Assembly: GCF_031599675.1 (NCBI RefSeq)
Contig: NZ_CP134223.1
Location: 2,170,001-2,234,000, forward strand
Direction of reading: 5' to 3'
Length of the DNA stretch: 64,000 nucleotides
Origin: Paenibacillus pedocola
GTDB taxonomy: Bacteria > Bacillota > Bacilli > Paenibacillales > Paenibacillaceae
Shown here one piece after another: positions 15,890 to 31,425 of this stretch. The position numbers and the translations under genes were made by a program. Positions within the stretch are counted from its first letter, which is position 1, and the number at the start of each line of letters is the position of its first letter. Below the pieces are notes generated by a model, which had not been told where the DNA came from, made no database searches, and saw only the letters and a program-made list of their open reading frames with translations.

Positions 15890-15984
15890 TTCAACGACTC
15901 CTTTGAGTTTGGTTGGTTATACCCACACAAATAATCTAAGCTGAACTTTTTTAGATATTTCATAAGGGGCAGCAGTGACGGAGG

Positions 15985-16315
15985 GGAAGCTTGGAACTGT
16001 AGGAGCGATAGCGTTAGTCTTTTGTCACCGGATTTCTAGCACCTATATAGAATGATCTTAAAAATACATATTGAAGGAAAGTGGCGGAAGGGAATTTTGG
16101 AACTGTAGGAGCGTTAGCGTCCGCCTTTGTCTGCGGATTTCCACCGCGAACAGCGGTACAAATCAAGAAATCTGCAGACAACAGCGGCCGGAAGTCCAAA
16201 CATTCTCTGGAGTCACGTCAACCCTAAAATATAAAATCACAAGATCAATCTATATAGTGTTTCTATCAAGAAATCTGGAGACAACAGCGGCCGGAACTCC
16301 AAGCATTCCCCGCAG
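15985..16315. repeat. Cluster of four inverted/direct repeat arms (TTTGTC/GACAA family)
   Basis: The 507-bp gap has no convincing gene. Two direct copies begin GGAACTGTAGGAGCG (15992 and 16099) and end near CGGATTTC. Two inverted copies begin CAAGAAATCTG (16164, 16267) and run through GACAACAGCGGCCGGAA. The order is two forward arms then two reverse arms, so a large imperfect stem-loop can form. A diverged pair of the same family lies at 18790-18906, on the other side of the maltose phosphorylase gene. Confidence 0.6.
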
Positions 16316-19007: not shown

Positions 19008-19670
19008 TCAAACTGCTGCGAATAATTCCTGCAGCTTGGCGACGCTGATCTGGGCGAGGGAAGGCACGACGAAGTTCGCTTCAGACAGCGTTTCGGGTGA
19101 ACCGATGCCGATGCTGCTCATGCCGGCACGGGTTGCAGCAAGGATTCCTGCCTCTGCATCCTCGAAGACGACACATTGCTCCGCCGGAACGGACACCGCC
19201 TGGGCACCCAGCAGGAACACCTCGGGATCAGGTTTGGCTGCGCTGGTATGTGTACCATCGATAATCGCATCGAAGTAGGGAGTCAGGCCGGTGTTGTTCA
19301 GGATGGTCATCGCATTTTTGCTGGCTGACCCGAGGGCAACCTTGATGCCGGCTTCACGGCATTCCTGGAGGAAGGATAACGCGCCCGGCAGAATTTCGGA
19401 GCTGTCCATTTTGGCGATGTATTCCACATAGCGGTTGTTTTTCTGCTCGGCAAGCCGTGCTTTTTCCGCTTCGTCTAACTCAAGTCCGCCGATTTCCAGC
19501 AGGATGTTCAGGGAAGCGGCCCGGCTGACGCCCTTAAGGCGCTCATTGTCCTGCTCAGTGAACACAAAACCGAGTTCTTCGGCAAGCTCTCTCCAGGCGA
19601 TAAAATGATATTTGGCGGTGTCGACGAGTACGCCGTCCAAATCGAACAAACAAGCTTTAATTGCTGACAT
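19008..19670 (-). CDS. pgmB: Beta-phosphoglucomutase
   Basis: 220 residues, typical length. HAD-superfamily signature FDLDGVLVDT with nucleophile D10 and general acid/base D12, the substrate-specificity segment RLKGVSRAASLNILLE, GSASKNA, and the KPDPEVFLLGA and VFEDAEAGI motifs. It converts beta-glucose 1-phosphate to glucose 6-phosphate in the cytoplasm, directly using the maltose phosphorylase product. AGGAGG stands before the ATG. Its 5' leader carries four tandem copies of an unusual 63-bp element that ends right at the ribosome binding site. Confidence 0.95.
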   Translation of the reverse strand: MSAIKACLFDLDGVLVDTAKYHFIAWRELAEELGFVFTEQDNERLKGVSRAASLNILLEIGGLELDEAEKARLAEQKNNRYVEYIAKMDSSEILPGALSFLQECREAGIKVALGSASKNAMTILNNTGLTPYFDAIIDGTHTSAAKPDPEVFLLGAQAVSVPAEQCVVFEDAEAGILAATRAGMSSIGIGSPETLSEANFVVPSLAQISVAKLQELFAAV

Positions 19671-19684
19671 GTTGAACCTCCTAA

Positions 19685-19927
19685 AAGTTTTGTGAGCTTA
19701 ACTTCCCGAATGGCTACGTACAAAACTCGCTCCGGAAGCATAAGCCTAAGTTTTGTGAGCTTAACTTCCCGAATGGCTACGTACAAAACTCGCTCCGGAA
19801 GCATAAGCCTAAGTTTTGTGAGCTTAACTTCCCGAATGGCTACGTACAAAACTCGCTCCGGAAGCATAAGCCTAAGTTTTGTGAGCATAGCTTCCTGAAT
19901 GACTTCGTACAAAACTCGTTCCGGAAG
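19685..19927 (-). repeat. Four tandem 63-bp leader elements before pgmB
   Basis: Units start at 19685, 19748, 19811 and 19874, giving an exact 63-bp period. Read on the minus strand each unit has CTTCC, then AGTTTTGT, then GGAAG, then ACAAAACT. CTTCC can pair with GGAAG and AGTTTTGT with ACAAAACT, but the pairs are interleaved, as in an H-type pseudoknot. In the unit next to pgmB the last arm runs straight into TTTAGGAGG, the ribosome binding site; in the other units it is followed by TAGGCTTATG. The same architecture occurs before the neopullulanase gene. The 379-bp gap also holds an operator and the lacI terminator, and nothing else that I can identify. Confidence 0.8.
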
Positions 19928-19977
19928 CGTGCAGCTAAGTACTTATGAATGAAGGCTGTTTTAACGCTGCAGGTTTA

Positions 19978-19993
19978 GCGCAAACGTTTGTAC
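19978..19993. promoter_or_regulatory. LacI/CcpA-type operator between the regulator and pgmB
   Basis: GCGCAAACGTTTGTAC contains the palindrome CAAACGTTTG. It is nearly identical to the site before the large amylase gene. Its position suits control of pgmB (inference). Confidence 0.55.
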
Positions 19994-20001
19994 AACATTC
20001 G

Positions 20002-20037
20002 AAAAAATAAATGAAGCAAGGGACTGCTTCATTTATT
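20002..20037 (-). terminator. Intrinsic terminator of the LacI-family regulator
   Basis: AATAAATGAAGCA and TGCTTCATTTATT form a 13-bp stem; on the minus strand six T follow. Confidence 0.85.
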
Positions 20038-20049
20038 CTTGAATCTTGG

Positions 20050-21087
20050 TCATTTCTTCCCTGGAGCATACATAGATGATTCTCTTACGATCAAACGGTG
20101 GGGAATGACGAAACGGTTTGTATATCCTGCATCATTATCCGGCTTCTGGATGCTTTGGATCAGCACCTGGGAGGCCGTATAACCAAGATGATAAATACCG
20201 ATGTCAATACTGCTGATCGGCGGGCTGGACAATTCCGAGAGCGGGATATTGTTAAAGCTGACAATCGCCAGATCCTCGGGTACCTTGTATTTCAGTTCGT
20301 TCAGACCGCGCAGTACTCCGAAAGAGACCATATCATCGACGGCAACGAGTGCTGTCGGGCGGTTCGGGAGATTCATAAAAAATGACATGGCCCGGTAGCC
20401 GCTATCCTGCAGAAATTCGCCCTCCACAATCCATTCCGTCCGCATCTCCAGACCGCTGTTCAGCATAGCTTTGCGGTATCCTTCAAGACGGTCGCGTGAA
20501 ACGATGAGATTAGGCGGCCCGCTGACAAAGCCGATGCGCTCATGTCCCATAGAAATCAGATGGTTCGTAGCGTCAAAGGCTGCCATGACATTATCGTTAT
20601 CCACGGATAATATATCCTCATAGCGGTCGCTTCGTCCAACAAGGACAAAGGGATAACCGCCGGATTCGAGAAAATCAATAACCGCATCATCTTTACGTGA
20701 GTACAGCAGAATAACGCCGTCTACCCGGCGCCCTTTGAGCAGGCGGGAGACCGCCTCCAGCTCTTCCTTCTCGTTTGCTCCGGAACTAATCAGCACATCA
20801 TAGCCGGATCGGCTGGACTGGGTAACAATCCCGCGGATCAATTCCATGAAGAACAGATTGGAGAAAAGCTCTTCAGCAGGCTTCGGCAAGATAATACAAA
20901 TGCTGTTGGTTGTTTTCGAAACCAGGCTCTTAGCCATCATATTCGGAGTGTAGCCCATTTCCTCCATGATTACTTTAACTTTACGGGAAGTTTCTAGGCT
21001 GATTCTGGGATGGCCTGACAACACCCGGGATACAGTGGAGGGAGAAACTCCCGCTTTCTTAGCCACATCCTTAATGGTAACTGTCAT
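20050..21087 (-). CDS. LacI-family transcriptional regulator, MalR-like
   Basis: 345 residues. The N-terminal helix-turn-helix TIKDVAKKAGVSPSTVSRVL and hinge are classical. The remainder is a periplasmic-binding-protein fold (ICIILP, DGVILL, GHERIGFVSG, VAVDDMVSFG) with sugar-binding character. Placed between pgmB and the divergent surface amylase gene, it is very likely the repressor of the alpha-glucan genes. CAAACGTTTG-type palindromes occur beside it, before the amylase and before malE. GAAGGAGG precedes the ATG at 21087; five extra upstream codons in frame overlap that site. The ligand (maltose, maltodextrin or other) cannot be read from the sequence. Confidence 0.9.
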   Translation of the reverse strand: MTVTIKDVAKKAGVSPSTVSRVLSGHPRISLETSRKVKVIMEEMGYTPNMMAKSLVSKTTNSICIILPKPAEELFSNLFFMELIRGIVTQSSRSGYDVLISSGANEKEELEAVSRLLKGRRVDGVILLYSRKDDAVIDFLESGGYPFVLVGRSDRYEDILSVDNDNVMAAFDATNHLISMGHERIGFVSGPPNLIVSRDRLEGYRKAMLNSGLEMRTEWIVEGEFLQDSGYRAMSFFMNLPNRPTALVAVDDMVSFGVLRGLNELKYKVPEDLAIVSFNNIPLSELSSPPISSIDIGIYHLGYTASQVLIQSIQKPDNDAGYTNRFVIPHRLIVRESSMYAPGKK

Positions 21088-21759: not shown

Positions 21760-24700
21760 ATGAAATTAGCTTTATGGAGCAAAAAGGCTTTTGCCGTCAG
21801 TATGATTGTTGTTCTAGTGTGCTCCTATTTTTCTTTTCCGGCATCACAGGTACAGGCTGCTGCAACCAAGGCATTTCTGGTCGGCACACTTCAGTCGGAA
21901 TTGTCTACAGAGGCGAATCCTACGAATGACTGGAATCCAGCAGCCACAGTAACGGAAATGACGTATACAGACAACGGCACTTATAAGTTTACTGGCTTAT
22001 TGCCTGCCGGAACCTATGAGTACAAGGTTGCGCTTAACGGCACATGGGATGAGAGCTATGGCTTCAGCAGCTATACCAATCCCGGCGGGAAAGATAATGG
22101 CGGCAATATTGTGCTTACACTTGCTGCCGAGACAACCGTAACCTTTTATTACAACGACATCACTAAGAAAATCGCAGATTCCACGTATTACACACCGCTT
22201 GCGCAGGATAAGCTGCCAAGGCTGGTTGGCTCTCTGCAGACAGAGCTGGGGGATGCCAATGATAATTCTGCGGCTGATGCCGGGACCCTGTTGACAGATA
22301 CCAACTATGATGACAGATACGAGAATTCAGTGAATCTGCCGAAGGGCGATTATTCATTCAGAGTGCTGGTTCCGGGAACTGCTCCAGCCGAAGATCGGTT
22401 CTACCCTGATGGGGATGTACCTTTGAGCCTGCCCGTGGATTTGACGGTAAAGTTTATGTACAATGAGCCGGATCACGGGGTCAGTACAGCATTGTTGGCT
22501 CCGGTAGATCCGGGGACAGCGGAGACGCCTGTGCCGGAAGGCAGTATCCGGATTCACTACAACCGTACCGCAGGTGATTACACCGACCAGGGCCTGTGGC
22601 TGTGGGATGATGTAGCTGCTGGTTCTGCGGGCTGGCCATCCGGTGCGACTGCATTTCCCGAAGGACAGACCGATTCCTATGGTGCCTATGTGGATATCCC
22701 GCTCAAAACCGGTGCCAAAAAAATCTCCTTCCTCGTCGTTAACCGCTCGAATGAAGCTAAAGACGGAGGAGATAAAACTTTTCTGATCAATACCCCGCAA
22801 ACCAATGAAATCTGGATCAAACAAGGTTCGGATACGGTAACGCCTTATGAGCCGGTATCCCTGCCTGCGAATACTGTCCGGATTCACTATATCAGAGCAG
22901 ATAATAAGCAGAGCGACTACGGCTTATGGCTGTGGGATGATGTAGCATCGGCGCCAAGCACCTGGCCGTCTGACGCAGTTCCTTTTCTGGCGGAGCATGC
23001 GGATCACTTTGGTGCATATGCCGATATCACGCTGAAAGACAATGCGAAGAAGCTTGGTTTCCTCGTGGTGAAGCCTTCAAACGGAGATAAAGACGGCGGC
23101 GACAAAGCTTTTAGCCTGCTGGACCGCTACAATCAGCTGTGGATCAAAGAAGGCGATAATAATGTTTATGTCTCTCCGTTCGGCGAACAGCCGGTGGGAC
23201 TGGTATCGGCAGAAGTGCTGTCTGCCAGTAAAATCCTGCTCGGGTTTACTTTAACCGACGGTCTGGATGCTGCGGCACTCAAGAGTGCAATCACGGTGAA
23301 GGACAAAGAGGGTGCAACTGTCCCTGTGTCTGCCGTGAAGATTACAAGTACTACATCCATTGAACTCGATACCGCAGTCTTTAATCTGGATAAAACACCG
23401 CTTAGCATTACTTATTCCGGCAAAACCGTATCCGCTTCCAGCGGCTGGAGAATGCTGGATGAGATGTACAATTACACAGGTGATGACCTTGGAGCGACCT
23501 ATCATGCGGCTGACAAATCGGCCACGCTGAAGCTATGGGCACCTATGGCCAGCACGGTTGTTGCGAATGTGTACAATAAGTCCAACGCAGCCGAAGTTGT
23601 CGGCCGGGTAAGCCTGACCAAGGGTGAGCAAGGAGTCTGGTCGGCAGAGCTGACGCCATCCGACATCACAGGAGTAAGTGGTGAACAGGATGTCCGCGGC
23701 TACTACTACCAGTATGAGGTAACGAATAACGGGGTCATGAAGCAGGTGCTAGATCCTTATGCCAAATCAATGGCCGTATTCACCGTTGATACTACAGGCG
23801 CAGCAGGTGCGGACGGAGATACAGTCGGCAAAGCGGCGATCGTTGATCTGAGCCGGACCAATCCGGCGACTTCCCATGCAGCGGATATTGAGGGCTATGA
23901 GAACCGGGAAGATGCCGTTATCTACGAAGTCCATCTCCGGGACTTTACCTCGGATGTCTCCATTGAGAGCAGTCTGGACGGCGAACGCTGGGGATCCTAT
24001 GCCGCTTTTGCCAAGAAACTTGATTATATCAAATCTCTGGGTGTTACCCACATTCAGCTGCTCCCGGTAATGGCTTGGTATTACGGGGATGAGACGGCAA
24101 TGAATGAAAGAGAAACGGCCTATTCGGCCCAAAACAATGAGTACAACTGGGGATATGATCCGCAGAGCTATTTCTCCCCGGATGGTGCCTATTCACAGAA
24201 TCCTGCAGATCCCGAAGAGCGGATCAAGGAGCTGAAAGGTCTCATTGATGCTGTACACGAAGCCGGAATGGGTGTCATTCTGGACGTTGTGTATACCCAT
24301 ATGGCCAAAAAGGAATTCCTGAACGATATCGTGCCGAATTATTATGCGTTCCAGGATGCAAACGGCAACTTTATCGGCGGGTTCGGCAATAACCTGGCTA
24401 CCAATCATAAAATGGCGGAAAAGCTGATGGTCGATTCCGTCAAATACTGGTTCAGTGAATACAAGATAGACGGTATGCGCTGGGATATGATGGGTGATGC
24501 GTCACAGGATGCGGTGCAGGCGGCTTATGATGCTGCTGCGGCGATCAATCCTAAGGCACTCTTTATCGGAGAAGGCTGGGTAACCTTTGGTGGTGCGGCT
24601 TCCGATCCGTCGCTTGCAGGCAAGGGTGCCGATCAGCAGTGGATGGACCAAACGGATAGCGTCGGCGTGTTCTCCGATGAATTCCGCAATGAATTGAAAT

Positions 24701-27700
24701 CTGGCTTTGGTTCGGAAGGGGAGCCGAGATTCATCACAGGCGGTGCGCGTTCCATTACCACCATCCTGAATAATATCAAGGCACAGCCGTCCAACATCCC
24801 TGCCGATGATCCGGGTGATGTAGTGCCCTATATCGAAGCCCATGATAATCTGACGCTGCATGATGTTATTGCGCAGTCGATTAAGAAGGACCCGGCGATT
24901 CCCGCGAATGAGCTGGAAATCCAGCAGCGGATCAGGCTCGGCAACACGCTGGAGCTGACGTCGCAGGGAACGGCTTTCCTGCAGGCGGGGCAAGAATATG
25001 GCCGTACTAAGCAATGGCTGGGTACTGGCGTACCTGAGCAGAAATATACCGAGATGAAGGATGCAGCCGGCAAGTCTTTTGGCTATTTTATCCACGATTC
25101 TTATGATTCCTCAGATGCTATCAACAAGTTTGACTGGGCGAAAGTAACGGATGAAGTGAACTTCCCGGTACAAAACACGACCAAAGATTATACTGCTGGG
25201 CTTATCAAGCTCAGAAAGTCTACGGATGCTTTCCGTCTGGGCGACAAGAGCATGGTGAATTCCAATGTCACCCTGATCCAGGCGCCGGAAATGAAGGCAA
25301 ACGATCTGGTGATCGGTTACAAGAACAAAGCGACAGATGGAACAGGCATTTATTACGTCTTTGTTAACGGAGACGATGAAGCAAGAACCCTTTCGCTGTC
25401 TGAGGATTTGACCGGGGGTACAGTGCTTGCCGATAACGATGAAGCGGGAATTACTGCTATCCCGGCCGCGGATCAGAGCGGGTTTACGCTGACCTCTACT
25501 TCTATTCAGCTGCAGCCCTTGACGGCCGTAATTATCCGGATAGATGCAGCGGCAGCAGCCTTTACTTCTGTGGAAGCAGACAGCACGGATTACATGCTTC
25601 AGCTCGGTACCACGCACCAGTCGGCTGTCTATGCCAAATATGATGACGGCAGCAAACGTAATATTACAAACACCGCAGTCTATACATCCGATAAACCGGA
25701 TGTGGCTGCCGTAAGCAGCAAAGGTGTAGTAACAGGATTAAAAGCCGGAACGGCAACGATCACGATTTCTTACGGCGGGCTTTCCACTGCTGTAACAGTT
25801 AAAGTTGTCAAAGAAGCTGTAGACAACAAGCGTTATATTGAATTCACTTATGTCCGTGACGACAAGGATTATAAGGACTGGAACATCTGGGTCTGGAACA
25901 CAGGTGCCAAGAACGACCAGATTGATTTCACCACCTTCAAGGACGGCAAGGCCAGTGTACTGATTGAAGTTGCACAGAACGCTACAAGTGTAGGTTTCGT
26001 GCTCCGCAAAGGCACAGACTGGAATACAGGGAAACAGGATTACCCGGATGACCGCGTCATTCCGCTTACTGCTGGCGAGCCATTCACCAAGGTTATTGTA
26101 ACTAGCCAGGTGAAGGAGCTGGATATCAAGCCATTTATCAGCGGTCCTGTGATGAAGGACGGAACGATTACCTTCAAGTACCGTGATGATGCGCTGTTCC
26201 GCAGCGGAAGCCAGGAGGGTATTGAGAAAGCCGCCGTCAAGGTAAACGGCACCGAATATCCGATGCTTTATGATGCTCAAAACGAATGGTTTACTTATGT
26301 AATGACAGGTGTGGAAGAAGGGACCTACAAGTATACCTTCCTGATTACCAAGGAGGGGGTTACCGAAGAGCTGACGGATCCGAAAAATACGGTGAACGGC
26401 GAATCAGCTGTGGTCTACCATAACCCTGATGTCACCATAACAGCAACCGTACAGCCGCAAGCAGTGACCTCCAATGAAAATGCTGTAGTGACGGTCAAGG
26501 CGGCTTCTGCGGAAGAAGTGGCATATCAGGCAGGCTACATGGATTTGACCGCCCTGGGAGGACCGGCGAAGGTTCAGCTTGATATGGGGCTGATGAAGCA
26601 CACCATTGCCGTAAAAGATACGGTAGCGGCAGGAACCAAAACGGTTCCAATTACACTTATTGATGAGTACGGCAACAGCCATACCGGTGCAGTAACGGTT
26701 GAAGTTAAGGCCAGAACGTATACCGGTGCTAAGCTCGACTTCGACTGGGATGAGGCGCGGATTTATTTTGCGCTGACGGACCGGTTTGCAGACGGCGATA
26801 CGGCCAACAACGAGAATGTAGACAAAACCCATCTGGAAGCCTATCACGGCGGAGATTTCCAGGGGATGATCGACCATTTGGATTATCTTCAGGAGCTTGG
26901 TATCAATACGCTCTGGATTACGCCGGTTGTCGACAACATAGACTTCAACAAAGGCATTGATTTCGGCGGAACACAGTACGCTTACCATGGCTACTGGGCC
27001 AAGGATTTCACCCAGCTGGATGAGCATCTTGGCGATATGGCAACCTTCAAGGAACTGATTGAGAAGGCGCATGACAAGGGGATCAAAATTATGGTTGACG
27101 TTGTGCTGAATCATGCAGGCTACGGCCTTGAAGCAGGCGACAGCTATGAAGGTGTTACTGCAGAGGATAAAGCACGCTTTGACGGAATGCTCCGCACAGA
27201 CAACGTTTCGGCGGATACCGATCCGGTCAAGGGCGAACTGGCGGGCTTGCCGGATTTCAAGACAGAAGATCCTGCGGTGCGCCAGAAGATTATCGACTGG
27301 CAGACAGGCTGGCTGGACAATGCGCGGACTGACCGCGGAGATACGATTGACTATTTCCGGGTAGACACCGTTAAGCATGTGGAGAGCACGACCTGGAAAG
27401 CTTTCAAAAATGCACTGACTGCTATTGACCCAAGCTTCAAGCTTGTCGGTGAATACTATGGCGGTACGATTGACGGTGACGGTGGCAATCTGCAGTCCGG
27501 CCAAATGGACGGCTTGCTTGATTTTGGATTCAAGAATGCGGCCAAAAATTTCACGGACGGCAAAATCACAGATGTAGATGCATACCTGCAAGACCGTGAA
27601 TCTAAGCTGGACAATACTAAGACTATGGCTCAATTCCTGAGCAGCCATGATGAGAACGGCTTCCTCTCTGATTACGTCGACGGAGATCAAGGCAAGCTGA

Positions 27701-29445
27701 TGATTGCGGCAGCACTGCAGATTACAGCTAAAGGCCAGCCGGTCATTTATTACGGGGAAGAGCTGGGCCGTTCCGGCAGCAATGCCGGGGATATGTCCAA
27801 GGGAGAGTTCAGCGAGAACCGCGGAGATATGCCATGGGAACAGTTTACAGCGGAGCAGGGGCTTCATGACCATTATCAGAAGCTGCTGAACATCCGGGCG
27901 CAGTATTCCAAAGTGTTCTCCAAAGGCACACGCACGAAGCTGGCCGGTTCGGATGACCTGGGATACCTTGCCTTCAACAAGCAGTACGGAACCGAAAATG
28001 TGGTTACGGTCATTAATACGAAGACAGAGGCTGTTACTGCCAGTATCCCTGTACCATTTACAGCAGCTACAGTTGTAAAAGATGAATACAGCGGCAAAAC
28101 GTATACGGTATCTGGTGATCAGAAGGTGACTATCGAGCTTCCGGGCAGAGATGAAGGCGGAACGGTTATTCTGGCTGTAGTGCCTAATGTGCATCCGACG
28201 CCAACACCGACGCCAACACCGACACCGACAGCAACAGCAACAGCAACACCAACTGCAACGCCAACGCCAACACCGACGCCAGCACCAGTAACGCTTCCGG
28301 GATCTATCCCCGGTTCTGTACCTGCGGCAACACCTGCTGCCGGCACGCAAACTATTAGTGCAGACAGTCTAAAAGGCGGTAAGGACGGCAAGGTTACCAT
28401 TGATGTTGCTGCATCCGCATCGTCGGTATTGCTGCCGATTCAGGCTGCAGCAGCACTCGGTACGAATGATCTCGTTCTGCACCAGGGTGAGCTCTCCGTG
28501 ACCCTGCCTAAAGAAGTGTTGCACGGGCTTCAGTCATCACTGACCGGATCGGATGCGGAAGGTGCGCAGATTCTATTCGGCATAGCCCCTCTTCAGGACG
28601 TAGCAGTGAATAGCCTGCTGAGCGGGCTGAACGGGAACAATACCCGTGTAACAGCGGCCTCAAAAGTTTATGAGTTTTCACTGTTCGTCGTTAAAAAGGA
28701 CGGCACACGTATTCCGGTTACTACATTTACAGCTCCGGTAGAGCTTACTCTTAAGTTCAGCGGCAATATAAACAAAGAGCTGCTTGGAGTCTACTTTGTA
28801 GGCGAAAACAACAGCCTGCAGTATGTAGGCGGAACTGTGAACGGGGATCAAATTACAGCTGAGGTAACGCATTTCAGCAAATACGCGGCACTTGAGCTGA
28901 ATAAATCCTTTAAGGACGTTCCTGCTCTGCATTGGGCAGCTCAAGCGGTTAAATCGCTCAGTGCGAAACAGATTGTAACAGGTGTGACAGCATCGGAATT
29001 CAAACCGGATGCAAGTGTCACCCGTGCGGAATTTACCGCCCTGCTGATTCGTGCACTGGGAATCAAAGCAGAAGGGCAAGCTTCATTCAGCGATGTCAGT
29101 GGAGATGCCTGGTATGCTTCTTATGTGGCGGCAGCTGTCAGCCAAGGCATTGTTTCCGGACGCAGTGCTGATATCTTTGCTCCGAATGCTGCGATCAGCC
29201 GCGAGGAGATGGCGGTTATGCTGATCCGTGCGCTGGAAGTGAAGCAGGGTAAGAAAACAAGCCCGGGCTCCTCATCTGCAGCGTTCACGGATGCCGGCAC
29301 CATCAGTTCATGGGCAGCAGACTATGTAAACACTGCGGCTGAGCTTGGGCTGGTACAGGGCAGAGAGAACAAGCAATTTGCGCCTAAGGCAATGATGACC
29401 CGCGCGGAAAGCGCACAGGTTATTTACAAATTGCTGGCTGAATAA
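21760..29445 (+). CDS. Giant cell-surface pullulanase/alpha-amylase with SLH anchor
   Basis: 2561 residues. Order: signal peptide (1-35); two X25-type starch modules (about 36-245); two CBM41 domains (about 260-470); Ig-like domain (about 478-565); CBM48 (about 571-680); type I pullulanase GH13 with YNWGYDP at 795, nucleophile D909, acid/base E938 and D1029; Big_2 domain (about 1268-1349); third CBM41 (about 1358-1457); two beta-sandwich domains; a second GH13 of alpha-amylase type with D1869, E1898 and D1964; a Pro-Thr linker (about 2145-2178); a beta-rich domain; three SLH repeats (about 2383 to end). It should cut alpha-1,6 and alpha-1,4 bonds of starch or pullulan while bound to the cell-wall polymer through SLH. 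Both active sites look intact. Likely controlled by LacI and CcpA sites upstream. Confidence 0.95.
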   Translation: MKLALWSKKAFAVSMIVVLVCSYFSFPASQVQAAATKAFLVGTLQSELSTEANPTNDWNPAATVTEMTYTDNGTYKFTGLLPAGTYEYKVALNGTWDESYGFSSYTNPGGKDNGGNIVLTLAAETTVTFYYNDITKKIADSTYYTPLAQDKLPRLVGSLQTELGDANDNSAADAGTLLTDTNYDDRYENSVNLPKGDYSFRVLVPGTAPAEDRFYPDGDVPLSLPVDLTVKFMYNEPDHGVSTALLAPVDPGTAETPVPEGSIRIHYNRTAGDYTDQGLWLWDDVAAGSAGWPSGATAFPEGQTDSYGAYVDIPLKTGAKKISFLVVNRSNEAKDGGDKTFLINTPQTNEIWIKQGSDTVTPYEPVSLPANTVRIHYIRADNKQSDYGLWLWDDVASAPSTWPSDAVPFLAEHADHFGAYADITLKDNAKKLGFLVVKPSNGDKDGGDKAFSLLDRYNQLWIKEGDNNVYVSPFGEQPVGLVSAEVLSASKILLGFTLTDGLDAAALKSAITVKDKEGATVPVSAVKITSTTSIELDTAVFNLDKTPLSITYSGKTVSASSGWRMLDEMYNYTGDDLGATYHAADKSATLKLWAPMASTVVANVYNKSNAAEVVGRVSLTKGEQGVWSAELTPSDITGVSGEQDVRGYYYQYEVTNNGVMKQVLDPYAKSMAVFTVDTTGAAGADGDTVGKAAIVDLSRTNPATSHAADIEGYENREDAVIYEVHLRDFTSDVSIESSLDGERWGSYAAFAKKLDYIKSLGVTHIQLLPVMAWYYGDETAMNERETAYSAQNNEYNWGYDPQSYFSPDGAYSQNPADPEERIKELKGLIDAVHEAGMGVILDVVYTHMAKKEFLNDIVPNYYAFQDANGNFIGGFGNNLATNHKMAEKLMVDSVKYWFSEYKIDGMRWDMMGDASQDAVQAAYDAAAAINPKALFIGEGWVTFGGAASDPSLAGKGADQQWMDQTDSVGVFSDEFRNELKSGFGSEGEPRFITGGARSITTILNNIKAQPSNIPADDPGDVVPYIEAHDNLTLHDVIAQSIKKDPAIPANELEIQQRIRLGNTLELTSQGTAFLQAGQEYGRTKQWLGTGVPEQKYTEMKDAAGKSFGYFIHDSYDSSDAINKFDWAKVTDEVNFPVQNTTKDYTAGLIKLRKSTDAFRLGDKSMVNSNVTLIQAPEMKANDLVIGYKNKATDGTGIYYVFVNGDDEARTLSLSEDLTGGTVLADNDEAGITAIPAADQSGFTLTSTSIQLQPLTAVIIRIDAAAAAFTSVEADSTDYMLQLGTTHQSAVYAKYDDGSKRNITNTAVYTSDKPDVAAVSSKGVVTGLKAGTATITISYGGLSTAVTVKVVKEAVDNKRYIEFTYVRDDKDYKDWNIWVWNTGAKNDQIDFTTFKDGKASVLIEVAQNATSVGFVLRKGTDWNTGKQDYPDDRVIPLTAGEPFTKVIVTSQVKELDIKPFISGPVMKDGTITFKYRDDALFRSGSQEGIEKAAVKVNGTEYPMLYDAQNEWFTYVMTGVEEGTYKYTFLITKEGVTEELTDPKNTVNGESAVVYHNPDVTITATVQPQAVTSNENAVVTVKAASAEEVAYQAGYMDLTALGGPAKVQLDMGLMKHTIAVKDTVAAGTKTVPITLIDEYGNSHTGAVTVEVKARTYTGAKLDFDWDEARIYFALTDRFADGDTANNENVDKTHLEAYHGGDFQGMIDHLDYLQELGINTLWITPVVDNIDFNKGIDFGGTQYAYHGYWAKDFTQLDEHLGDMATFKELIEKAHDKGIKIMVDVVLNHAGYGLEAGDSYEGVTAEDKARFDGMLRTDNVSADTDPVKGELAGLPDFKTEDPAVRQKIIDWQTGWLDNARTDRGDTIDYFRVDTVKHVESTTWKAFKNALTAIDPSFKLVGEYYGGTIDGDGGNLQSGQMDGLLDFGFKNAAKNFTDGKITDVDAYLQDRESKLDNTKTMAQFLSSHDENGFLSDYVDGDQGKLMIAAALQITAKGQPVIYYGEELGRSGSNAGDMSKGEFSENRGDMPWEQFTAEQGLHDHYQKLLNIRAQYSKVFSKGTRTKLAGSDDLGYLAFNKQYGTENVVTVINTKTEAVTASIPVPFTAATVVKDEYSGKTYTVSGDQKVTIELPGRDEGGTVILAVVPNVHPTPTPTPTPTPTATATATPTATPTPTPTPAPVTLPGSIPGSVPAATPAAGTQTISADSLKGGKDGKVTIDVAASASSVLLPIQAAAALGTNDLVLHQGELSVTLPKEVLHGLQSSLTGSDAEGAQILFGIAPLQDVAVNSLLSGLNGNNTRVTAASKVYEFSLFVVKKDGTRIPVTTFTAPVELTLKFSGNINKELLGVYFVGENNSLQYVGGTVNGDQITAEVTHFSKYAALELNKSFKDVPALHWAAQAVKSLSAKQIVTGVTASEFKPDASVTRAEFTALLIRALGIKAEGQASFSDVSGDAWYASYVAAAVSQGIVSGRSADIFAPNAAISREEMAVMLIRALEVKQGKKTSPGSSSAAFTDAGTISSWAADYVNTAAELGLVQGRENKQFAPKAMMTRAESAQVIYKLLAE
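28192..28290 (+). repeat. Hexanucleotide repeat encoding the Pro-Thr linker
   Basis: Repeats of CC(A/G)AC(A/G)-type hexamers encode alternating Pro-Thr and Ala-Thr. Such simple repeats can change length by slippage without breaking the frame. The linker separates the catalytic half from the anchor half. Confidence 0.75.
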
Positions 29446-29522: not shown

Positions 29523-31268
29523 TTACAGAACTGCTTTAACGGCAGTATAACCATACGCCGGAAGCTTGAGGGTGAGTTTGCCCCGCTCAGCCCGCAAGGA
29601 ATCGCCAGTGAACAGATCCGTCCAATTCCGCTCTTCTACATCGAGCCGGAAGGTCTGGGCGGCTTCTTCTGTATTCATAAGAACGATAATTACTTCATCG
29701 CCAAGGCTGCGTTCAAAGGCGAGCTTGCTGCCATCCCGGCCGGCTTCAAGGAATGTGAAGGAGCCGCTGCGCAGCGCTGGATGTTTGCCGCGGATTTCGA
29801 TCAGCTTGCGGTAGAAGCTGAACAGGTCGTGGTCCTGCTTCTCGGGATCCCATTCCATACATTTGCGGCAGCCCGGATCATTCTCCCCGTCCATACCGAT
29901 TTCGTCTCCGTAGTAGATGCAAGGCGTGCCCATAAAGGTGAACTGGAACAGTACAGCCAGCTTGAATTTCTTTTTGTCGCCGCCGGCAAGGGTTAAGAGG
30001 CGTGCCGTATCGTGGCTGTCCAGCAGGTTGAAGGCCACCTCGCTGGCTTGCAGCGGATAGCGTGACAGCTGTTTACCAATTGCATTGGCGAAGCCTTCCG
30101 CATCAAGCGAGCTGTTGATGAAGAAATCCAGGACGGCATCCGTGAACGGGTAGTTCATCACGGCGTCGAATTTGTCGCCTTCCAGCCAAGGAGCAGATTC
30201 ATGCCAGATTTCGCCGAGAATATAGGCTTCCGGATTGGCATTCTTCACGACCTTGCGGAATTCGCGCCAGAAGCCGTGATCTACTTCGTTGGCTACATCC
30301 AGGCGCCAGCCGTCGATACCGACCTCTTTGATCCAATATTCTGCCACCTTCAGGAGGTATTCTTTTACTTCAGGGTTCTCTGTGTTGAGTTTCGGCATAT
30401 GCGGCTCGAACGAAAAAGCATCATAATTCGGGATGTTGTCCACTACCTGAAGCGGGAACTCGCGGACATGGAACCAGTCTTTGTAACGGGAGTTCTCCCC
30501 ATGTTCCAGCACATCCAGGAACGGGGCGAAGGTTCTGCCGGAATGGTTGAATACGGCGTCCAGCAGCACGCGGATACCGCGTTCATGGCAGGCGTCGACG
30601 AGTTTTTTGAGGGTCTCCACATCACCGAAATGAGGGTCAACCTTCATATAGTCCTCGGTATCGTATTTATGATTAGTGGTGCCGGCAAAAATAGGCGTGA
30701 AATAGATTCCGGTAATCCCGAGCTCTGTCAGATGGTCCAAGTGATCCATAACACCCTGCAGGTCTCCGCCGAAGAAATTCTCAGGTGTGGGGGTTCCTCC
30801 CCACGGCTGTACATTGTCCGGGTTCAGGCTGGCGTCCCCGTTGGCAAACCGCTCGGGAAAGATTTGATAAAAGACTGCATCCTTGACCCAAGCCGGAGGG
30901 GTGAAGACATCCCCGCGGTTGATGTAAGGGAATTCGAAGAGGCGGTTTGGATTTATTGGGCGTTCAGTTTGGAAGTCGCTTTCGGTCATCCAGATCCGCT
31001 CGTGGCCCTTTTGCAGCAGGAAGCCGTATTTAAGCCGGCGGTAGAGGGGAACGGATTCACACTCCCAGTAATCGAACATCGCATCGCTGGTAAATAGCTT
31101 CATCGGGATCAGTTCTTTAGTAGTGTCCCATGCATATTTGTCCCCGGCCCAGGCAAATACTTCTGTTAAATCACCCTTTTTGGCGCGCAGACGAAGATGG
31201 ATGGTTTCGTGATCGTAGGCATAAGACCAATTTAAGCGCGGGCGGTGATATACTGCTTCTAGTAACAT
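29523..31268 (-). CDS. Neopullulanase/cyclomaltodextrinase (GH13_20)
   Basis: 581 residues, the usual size, without signal peptide, so cytoplasmic. The N-terminal 120 residues are the starch-binding CBM34-like domain of this subfamily. The barrel shows the GH13_20 mark MPKLN, the nucleophile in GWRLDVANEVD, the acid/base in LGEIWH and LDSHDTAR. Such enzymes open cyclodextrins and shorten maltodextrins or pullulan fragments, feeding maltose to the phosphorylase. The ATG at 31268 (M-L-L-E) has AGGAGG at the right distance; ten in-frame codons before it are leader. The leader carries two diverged copies of the interleaved-arm element also found before pgmB. Confidence 0.92.
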   Translation of the reverse strand: MLLEAVYHRPRLNWSYAYDHETIHLRLRAKKGDLTEVFAWAGDKYAWDTTKELIPMKLFTSDAMFDYWECESVPLYRRLKYGFLLQKGHERIWMTESDFQTERPINPNRLFEFPYINRGDVFTPPAWVKDAVFYQIFPERFANGDASLNPDNVQPWGGTPTPENFFGGDLQGVMDHLDHLTELGITGIYFTPIFAGTTNHKYDTEDYMKVDPHFGDVETLKKLVDACHERGIRVLLDAVFNHSGRTFAPFLDVLEHGENSRYKDWFHVREFPLQVVDNIPNYDAFSFEPHMPKLNTENPEVKEYLLKVAEYWIKEVGIDGWRLDVANEVDHGFWREFRKVVKNANPEAYILGEIWHESAPWLEGDKFDAVMNYPFTDAVLDFFINSSLDAEGFANAIGKQLSRYPLQASEVAFNLLDSHDTARLLTLAGGDKKKFKLAVLFQFTFMGTPCIYYGDEIGMDGENDPGCRKCMEWDPEKQDHDLFSFYRKLIEIRGKHPALRSGSFTFLEAGRDGSKLAFERSLGDEVIIVLMNTEEAAQTFRLDVEERNWTDLFTGDSLRAERGKLTLKLPAYGYTAVKAVL

Positions 31269-31283
31269 GATAATTCCTCCTAA

Positions 31284-31425
31284 AAGTTTTGTTAGCACAT
31301 GCTTCCTCGACTAGTCATCAGGCAAAACTCGCATCGGAAGCAAGGGCTAAAAGTTTTGTTAGCGTTTACTTCCTTGCCGGACATCGGACAAAACTGCTAC
31401 GGAAGCATACACTTAAGTTTTGTGA
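31284..31425 (-). repeat. Two diverged leader elements plus a fragment before the neopullulanase gene
   Basis: Copies lie at 31284-31340 and 31351-31405, with a partial end at 31415-31425. On the minus strand each shows CTTCC, AGTTTTG, GGAAG, CAAAACT in that order, as in the pgmB leader, but the sequences between the arms differ almost completely. The copy next to the gene again ends ACAAAACTTTTAGGAGG, so the last arm abuts the ribosome binding site. Confidence 0.75.

Follow-up and report, generated by a model that had tools for sequence, protein, structure and literature searches.

A hairpin-forming leader repeat beside Shine-Dalgarno sequences in Paenibacillus pedocola and its relatives

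Dozens of unrelated genes in Paenibacillus pedocola and related bacteria have a hairpin unit, single or in tandem, roughly three bases ahead of their ribosome-binding site, which points to a shared mode by which protein synthesis is tuned, or parasitised, at its start. Judging from sequence, we consider it somewhat more probable than otherwise (roughly 0.53) that the unit is a small cis-acting mRNA element that would sit beside the Shine-Dalgarno (SD) sequence and tune the translation or stability of single cistrons. The analysis started from a 64,000-nucleotide stretch of the genome (contig NZ_CP134223.1, positions 2,170,001 to 2,234,000), hereafter referred to as the window.

In the window, the element forms a tandem array in the leader of pgmB, which encodes a beta-phosphoglucomutase of 220 aa (19008..19670, minus strand; TIGR01990, 228.8 bits, cut-off 189.4). 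TRF delimits the array at 19685-19928 with a period of 63, 3.9 copies and 96% matches. The preliminary description saw four 63-bp units in exact tandem; this is true of three identical units, but the distal fourth has diverged. All four are long-form units on the minus strand and match the covariance model R1 (see below): the unit proximal to pgmB at 19686..19749 (67.5 bits; G000:C1:2189686-2189749), its identical copies at 19749..19812 (67.5 bits, offset by the TRF period of 63) and 19812..19875 (67.5 bits), and the distal unit at 19875..19938 (54.7 bits). The sequence bears out the arm order given previously, namely CTTCC, AGTTTTGT, GGAAG and ACAAAACT on the minus strand. The last arm of the proximal unit (19686..19693, minus strand) is the 3' arm of a stem, P2, assigned from the sequence and from stem covariation in 238 SD-anchored units, and pairs with AGTTTTGT of the same unit. 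As was also described, this arm abuts and runs into TTTAGGAGG, with the pgmB ATG six bases further. The SD sequence itself, AGGAGG (19677..19682, minus strand), lies 3 nt (TTT) past the proximal unit. A PLSDB search returned a single record, with 22% query coverage and located inside pgmB. Upstream of the array, at 19960-20050 (minus strand), there are a terminator-like hairpin AATAAATGAAGCA...TGCTTCATTTATT and a palindromic TTGTACAAACGTTTGCGCTA, both conserved among relatives; we take this region to resemble a sugar-repressor operator.

The same element had been noted before a neopullulanase gene, and two units are indeed present there (31285-31416, minus strand). The proximal long-form unit (31285..31351, minus strand; R1, 59 bits) and the distal one (31352..31416, minus strand; 59.4 bits) are preceded by an extra truncated unit end and followed by AGGAGG (31276..31281, minus strand). 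The gene is an ORF for a neopullulanase/cyclomaltodextrinase-like glycosidase of 581 aa (29523..31268, minus strand), whose best NCBIfam matches (423 aa scanned) are maltodextrin glucosidase and cyclomaltodextrinase, at about 232 bits and both below the cut-off. The 3'-arm pattern occurs nine times in the window against 1.34 expected, a number reached in none of 100 shuffles. The recurrence of the element before pgmB and the neopullulanase-like gene is not due to chance. The window also contains an imperfect hexanucleotide CCAACA repeat of 14.5 copies (28201-28287) within a large ORF (21760-29445).

On the scale of the 6.47-Mb genome, a simple arm pattern gave 86 matches compared to six for the reversed control. 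Model R1, built from 47 units (alignment A1) that are mostly SD-proximal copies, gave 106 matches (E<=1e-3) in 67 arrays. Single units make up 34 of these, pairs 28, triplets four and a quadruplet one, so that 33 of the 67 have at least two units. Directly behind 63 of the 67 arrays stand an SD-like sequence, agreeing with AGGAGG at five or more of six positions, and a start codon that opens a frame of 30 codons or longer (the shortest has 32). The unit and the SD-like sequence are separated by 3 nt in 53 of the 63 arrays and by 1, 2 or 4 nt in the rest. The distance from the unit end to the start codon ranges from 9 to 20 nt with a mode of 16, and is 15-17 nt in 46 of the 63. Three of the four remaining arrays precede AGGCG(G/A) within a different repeat, and the fourth is a truncated unit that nevertheless precedes AGGAGG and a start codon. 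By a rough rule, a same-strand ORF ends no more than 200 nt upstream of 34 of the 67 arrays, which means that many arrays may sit inside operons.

Since R1 was built mostly from SD-proximal copies, we added a pattern scan of genome contigs that is blind to the SD sequence; it found at least 120 stretches. Among the matches listed, 75 of the 80 titled rows were Paenibacillus, and 86 of the 91 terminal units with an intact 3' arm were adjacent to an SD sequence, 65 of them at a distance of 3 nt (the count excludes 48 cores with a further unit behind them; another 25, in which no AAAACT end could be recognised, were set aside). The five exceptions among the matches listed were L240, which has an SD-like TTTAAGAGG; L253, followed by one more unit; and L222, L224 and L289, which are without an SD sequence. 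Two of the cores set aside, from Elusimicrobia and Ferruginibacter MAGs, look like chance matches. The short-form module (see below) does not adjoin an SD sequence in L150 and L164 (both genome G220), L224 and L289. The preliminary description had proposed asking whether covariance-model matches lie upstream of start codons on the coding strand. They do in 63 of the 67 arrays, and the SD-blind figures among the matches listed agree; copies scattered without preference for strand or for distance to the ribosome-binding site (RBS) are not what the genome contains.

To characterize the genes behind the arrays, we scanned 30 of the 63 targets in the own genome. They include sdhA and sdhB (succinate dehydrogenase subunits), icd (isocitrate dehydrogenase), topA (topoisomerase I), trpD, nifB, ribE (riboflavin synthase), hom (homoserine dehydrogenase), apt (adenine phosphoribosyltransferase), cdd (cytidine deaminase), rhaA (rhamnose isomerase) and citramalate synthase, while GroEL and RecQ were identified via near-identical proteins of loci L325 and L284. 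Two dihydrolipoyl acyltransferase-like proteins and one microcompartment shell-like protein scored below the cut-off; a YlbF/YmcA protein, a hydroxyethylthiazole kinase, a small spore protein and others were identified by Pfam, and two scanned targets had no match at all. A shared metabolic theme, as would be expected of a riboswitch, was not found among the 30 scanned targets. The 134 downstream genes from other loci appear equally mixed by eye; 44 of them are ortholog-like to targets in the own genome, mostly with >80% identity, and 90 are not.

Comparison of units revealed a shared core, consisting of (A)TGCTTNCGAAGC, one free base, the stem P2, a short spacer and the SD sequence. The conserved segment (A)UGCUUNCGAAGC can fold into a hairpin of 4 bp whose loop is NCG. 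P2 spans about 7-10 bp, usually AGUUUUG...CAAAACU, and is followed by a short U-rich spacer and the SD sequence of one cistron. The two forms of the unit differ in what P2 encloses, a loop of 3-5 nt in the short form and an interior of about 30 nt in the long form. The short form (about 39-45 nt), found in other genera, keeps the mini-hairpin and the AGUUUUG/CAAAACU stem and is devoid of the inner GGAAG arm. Its longest array has eleven 42-bp units in tandem directly before an SD sequence (L181, G167:C1:1734400-1737300), and it also occurs in the own genome, at 6219448-6219488 and within 6026172-6026682. Across the 47 long units of A1, GCUU and CG are invariant. Variation in the mini-hairpin is limited to its 3' side and mostly leads to G-U; hence its invariance may have another cause. 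A leader peptide was considered and rejected: the frame ATG CTT ACG AAG... is open in the 42-bp form but is lost in long units (by eye).

Covariation was assessed in the stem P2. Among 238 SD-anchored units, selected without any pairing requirement, 212 have seven of seven Watson-Crick pairs. In 50 units the 5' arm has changed from AGTTTTG, and 37 of them still pair perfectly; when 3' arms were instead drawn from other units, 1000 draws gave 4.8 on average and never more than 12 (register shifts were allowed equally for real and drawn arms). The excess is smaller at six or more of seven pairs (43 changed-arm units; drawn mean 30, maximum 37). With the register fixed, which undercounts pairing, none of 2000 shuffles reached the observed value in either size class. 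The 50 changed-arm units are not independent: the 37 perfect ones represent 15 distinct arm pairs, some differing only in the number of T, and one pair is seen eight times, mostly in orthologous groEL leaders. The loci were moreover fetched by a model or pattern favouring the consensus. Bystander changed-arm units in loci fetched without the 3' arm in the pattern nevertheless pair perfectly in 11 of 14 cases (draws: mean 2.0, maximum 5). Examples of compensated arm pairs are AGCTTTCC/GGAAAGCT, AGCTTAAC/GTTAAGCT and AATTTTGC/GCAAAATT. RNAalifold applied to A1 predicts P2 together with the GCUU-NCG-AAGC hairpin; in six of the 47 units both partners of one pair have changed. P2 is thus supported by covariation, and mutation of the arms without compensation, the outcome that would have counted against the preliminary description, was not borne out for this stem. 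A structured RNA on the coding strand, as initially suggested, fits both the compensating arm changes and the genome-wide lock to the RBS.

It might be argued that inverted arms, tandem copies and closeness to genes could equally mark a DNA-level element, such as a promoter, operator or recombination site, that merely resembles RNA. We regard this as highly improbable given the exact phase to the SD sequence and start codon, the sense strand, the often intercistronic position and the covariation of paired arms. A promoter in particular was rejected because -35/-10 spacing, judged by eye, is inconsistent over the long and short forms. Position, strand and covariation all favour an RNA that would act on the adjacent cistron; protection from decay and contact with the ribosome or with a protein are candidate modes of action.

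Control of access to the RBS, the function originally proposed, gains no support from predicted folding. Six single leaders are not unusually stable (z between -1.40 and 0.45), with folds that differ from one another and often favour other pairings. Over 62 loci the predicted accessibility of the SD sequence was 0.371 for native leaders, 0.360 for shuffled and 0.412 for element-less ones, with no difference (p=0.23 and 0.15). Since neither shuffling nor removal of the array changes predicted accessibility, simple sequestration or insulation of the SD sequence is unsupported and was rejected.

The inner arms raise a related question. Pairing of CTTCC with GGAAG, which would cross P2, is present only in long units. 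For 94 non-redundant units the mean duplex energy of the crossing segments is -10.93, compared to -10.23 (sd 0.19) when interiors are swapped between loci, a value not attained in any of 300 swaps. In addition, G precedes GAAG in 21 of the 45 units that have C as the N of CTTNC, and in 5 of the 38 others (Fisher p=0.0017), with 83 of the 94 units scorable and shared ancestry not removed; such ancestry could be part of the cause of both signals. The effect is small, and the crossing arm may be considered modestly supported, in the long form only. The preliminary description interpreted the interleaved arms as an H-type pseudoknot. The crossing pair retains this modest support, but an interleaved pseudoknot is not the core of the element because the form of about 39-45 nt has no GGAAG arm, so two crossing helices are not found in all members. 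An anti-SD role of CUUCC was likewise rejected, as the motif is not conserved: its fourth base N can be C, T or A in the long form and is mostly A in the short one.

These signals bear on a different reading, in which the leader is a regulated switch read by a protein or ligand: CUUCC of the long form would alternate between the in-unit GGAAG and GGAGG of the SD sequence, or a crossing-helix pseudoknot would gate the SD sequence. Locus-specific complementarity of the crossing segments fits this reading, as does the preference for G before GAAG when N is C, which a longer CTTCC/GGAAG helix would want. So do the invariance of GCUU and CG and some minimum-energy folds that pair UGCUUCC with GGAGG (L067 and L009). 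We nonetheless find a switch quite unlikely. Neither pairing can be general, as the short form is without the inner arm and mostly has CUUAC; N takes three forms (C, T, A) although the G of GAAG, with which it would pair directly, is nearly constant; the targets are without a functional theme; and predicted SD accessibility is unaffected. On geometric grounds, too, the 1-2 nt between the two 3' strands would be too few for both full-length helices in a standard H-type knot.

To assess how widely the element occurs, we searched other genomes with R1, using stricter filters and limited candidates per genome; the E-values of the model are rough. Matches are present in 99 of 100 genus genomes, the own one included (G024 is without a match), in 201 of 296 order genomes representing 27 of 48 genera, and in 23 of 299 class genomes. 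Many genus-g2 genomes have one or two matches near E 1e-4 to 1e-3, and weak matches, chiefly single ones in this range, may be due to chance. Three of the class genomes with matches (G365, G581 and G392) lie outside the order and have one copy each (L351, L352 and L353). Each of these copies is a long-form unit of full length that precedes TTTTAGGAGG and a start codon, and two of them, located before the same gene, share the compensated stem AGTTTTC/GAAAACT. They are likely the result of horizontal transfer; their position and compensated stems favour a cis-acting element, while their isolated occurrence also suits a selfish module.

Such a selfish insertion module targeting AGGNGG is the main alternative to a cis-acting leader element. 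If the SD sequence were simply the target, the RBS position would follow, and effects on the host would be incidental and tolerated. Presence and absence at orthologous loci lend some weight to this alternative. For groEL, 100 genomes had a match and 30 loci were read: the element is present in 14 (in some of them as two units) and missing from 12, three have remnants and one is unclear, and an SD-like sequence is kept in all 30. For pgmB, 30 loci read of 100 comprise 13 with one to four units, one degenerate and 16 without, 10 of which still read TTTTAGGAGG; one relative has a unit with an internal deletion. The absence of the element from orthologous genes of many relatives that keep the SD sequence indicates that it is dispensable. 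The own genome has 53 sites of CTTTTAGGAGG, where the reversed pattern yields 10. Array ends account for 39 of the 53, short units for another one and visible remnants for two. The sequence either belongs to the element, marks a site where units prefer to land, or is a scar.

The module has another setting in a second dispersed repeat, whose pattern matched 81 times and the control twice. This repeat has a large hairpin TTGTCTGCAGATTTC/GAAATCCGCAGACAA that, together with its variants, covaries by eye and is immediately followed by AGGCGGACGCTANCGCTCC; a search of four of its loci gave no Rfam match. In 22 of 73 distinct copies (duplicates L177 and L178 removed by hand, L431 counted as a module carrier) the short-form module lies exactly between the hairpin and AGGCGG or a near variant, and, unlike in the RBS setting, no start codon follows. 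The order of hairpin core, T-rich spacer and AGGNGG is thus the same as in RBS leaders, and a module 5' of AGGNGG in two unrelated settings is what insertion at an AGGNGG target would predict. A single insertion copied along with the second repeat would also fit. A purely translational function does not explain the module before AGGCGG in a repeat that is not an RBS. The window itself has a copy of the second repeat, and perhaps a second partial one, at about 15980-16210 (minus strand; core 16108-16127), where the hairpin is followed by AGGCGGACGCTANCGCTCC. In genome G220 (L150 and L164) the module is inside a MITE-like inverted repeat with ends like GAGTGTGTTTAATAAGTGG, another point in favour of a selfish module. 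L204 and L275 have a module-like core with the stem ATGTTTCC/GGAAACAT followed by CAGGTGCTCA rather than an SD sequence, perhaps another carrier repeat.

Other observations make a selfish module unlikely. Tandem copies within a locus are often nearly identical, whereas units from different loci of the own genome have diverged (best alignment score 51/66, median 28), which argues that local duplication dominates; neither near-identical copies at different loci nor, consequently, recent jumps were seen in this genome. The arms remain paired despite this divergence, also in old copies. Y1 transposase (PF01797) was not found in G000 (the own genome), G006, G063, G059 and G220, although nine other genomes of the 14 tested match, which leaves RAYT/REP-type mobilisation unsupported here. 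The signs of a MITE are mixed: by eye, neither terminal inverted repeats nor target duplication were noticed at RBS-linked arrays and empty sites, yet ACAAAC flanks the groEL unit on both sides in G000, and the G220 copies do lie in an inverted repeat. The second-repeat insert could, as noted, be one event. The suggestion of a mobile leader cassette made in the preliminary description is supported by presence or absence at orthologous loci, the module in another repeat and single copies outside the order.

No Rfam family matches the window or 17 element-carrying loci at the gathering cut-off; the best weak match is ROSE_3 (13.1 bits against a cut-off of 43, E 3.3). Riboswitches, T-boxes and RNA thermometers also place structured RNA just before the SD sequence, as here. 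The element differs from them in having no Rfam match at gathering score and no common pathway among the identified targets. It resembles REP palindromes in being a short hairpin repeat of high copy number; those are GTAG- or CGTC-tagged and mostly located 3' of genes, in contrast to the element. The accessible text of PMC3733652 (REP/RAYT) has no term matches for Paenibacillus or ribosome, and that of PMC11109978 and PMC8632094 does not mention Paenibacillus (term search). The transcriptome study of Paenibacillus riograndensis SBR5 reports, in its accessible part, an aGGaGg consensus and an Rfam-based leader screen (PMC5670726), which would be blind to the element because the family is absent from Rfam. 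In the open-access literature, as far as its texts were available, we found no description of the leader element, in keeping with the earlier statement that it matches no described family.

A close parallel is provided by the TAACTGA direct repeats of marine Beggiatoaceae, which precede start codons (MacGregor 2015, PMC4679880). Both are tandem, forward-oriented repeats before starts without a functional pattern downstream, and the direct, forward arrangement at a near-fixed distance to the start region places the element among dispersed tandem leader repeats. According to the accessible text, a post-transcriptional role was proposed and horizontal spread suspected for TAACTGA (PMC4679880), likewise here. 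However, its units are of 7 bp, and the largest class ends 1 nt ahead of the start and has for the most part no RBS; that text reports no covarying stem, and the phyla are different (PMC4679880). Pneumococcal BOX elements (PMC3049150) share modularity, a variable copy number of one module, an RNA fold, a location in UTRs and the ability to affect neighbouring genes. They differ in their boxA-boxB-boxC structure, are MITE-like and regarded as parasitic, and have no SD locking reported in the accessible part of the source (PMC3049150). The bcr repeats of the Bacillus cereus group (PMC3446304) are similarly interspersed, in UTRs and inside operons; bcr10 and bcr18 form conserved RNA structures in 5' UTRs, and bcr3 correlates with mRNA decay rate. 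They are nevertheless different repeats, for which the accessible text reports no fixed SD distance (PMC3446304). Going by these sources, the combination of a covarying stem, a near-fixed SD distance and arrays of up to 11 units is matched exactly by none of TAACTGA, BOX and bcr.

Returning to the cis-acting leader element, its placement suggests how it could work. P2 mostly ends 3 nt before the SD sequence, and 46 of 63 arrays leave 15-17 nt between its end and the start codon. Given the footprint of the 30S subunit on mRNA, we infer that the stem would be positioned at the exit edge of the bound subunit, where the mRNA leaves. There it might set initiation, shield the 5' side of the cistron from decay after operon processing, or both, and the copy number of units could act as a dial. 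Local tandem duplication would account for most of the spread, and insertion directly 5' of AGGNGG would be a rare event.

The element makes it possible to test directly if initiation or mRNA decay is tuned for each cistron separately by a hairpin at the 30S exit edge, and orthologous genes offer a natural copy-number series of units for this. The units could also supply translation parts for Paenibacillus. A more far-reaching idea, which we hold tentatively and consider doubtful, is that a mobile RNA-coding module homes to AGGNGG, for that reason comes to rest precisely before SD sequences, and gives many unrelated Paenibacillales genes a common ribosome-docking hairpin tunable by copy number, a genome-wide layer of translation tuning. 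If this were true, the Shine-Dalgarno sequence would itself be the target of a mobile element.
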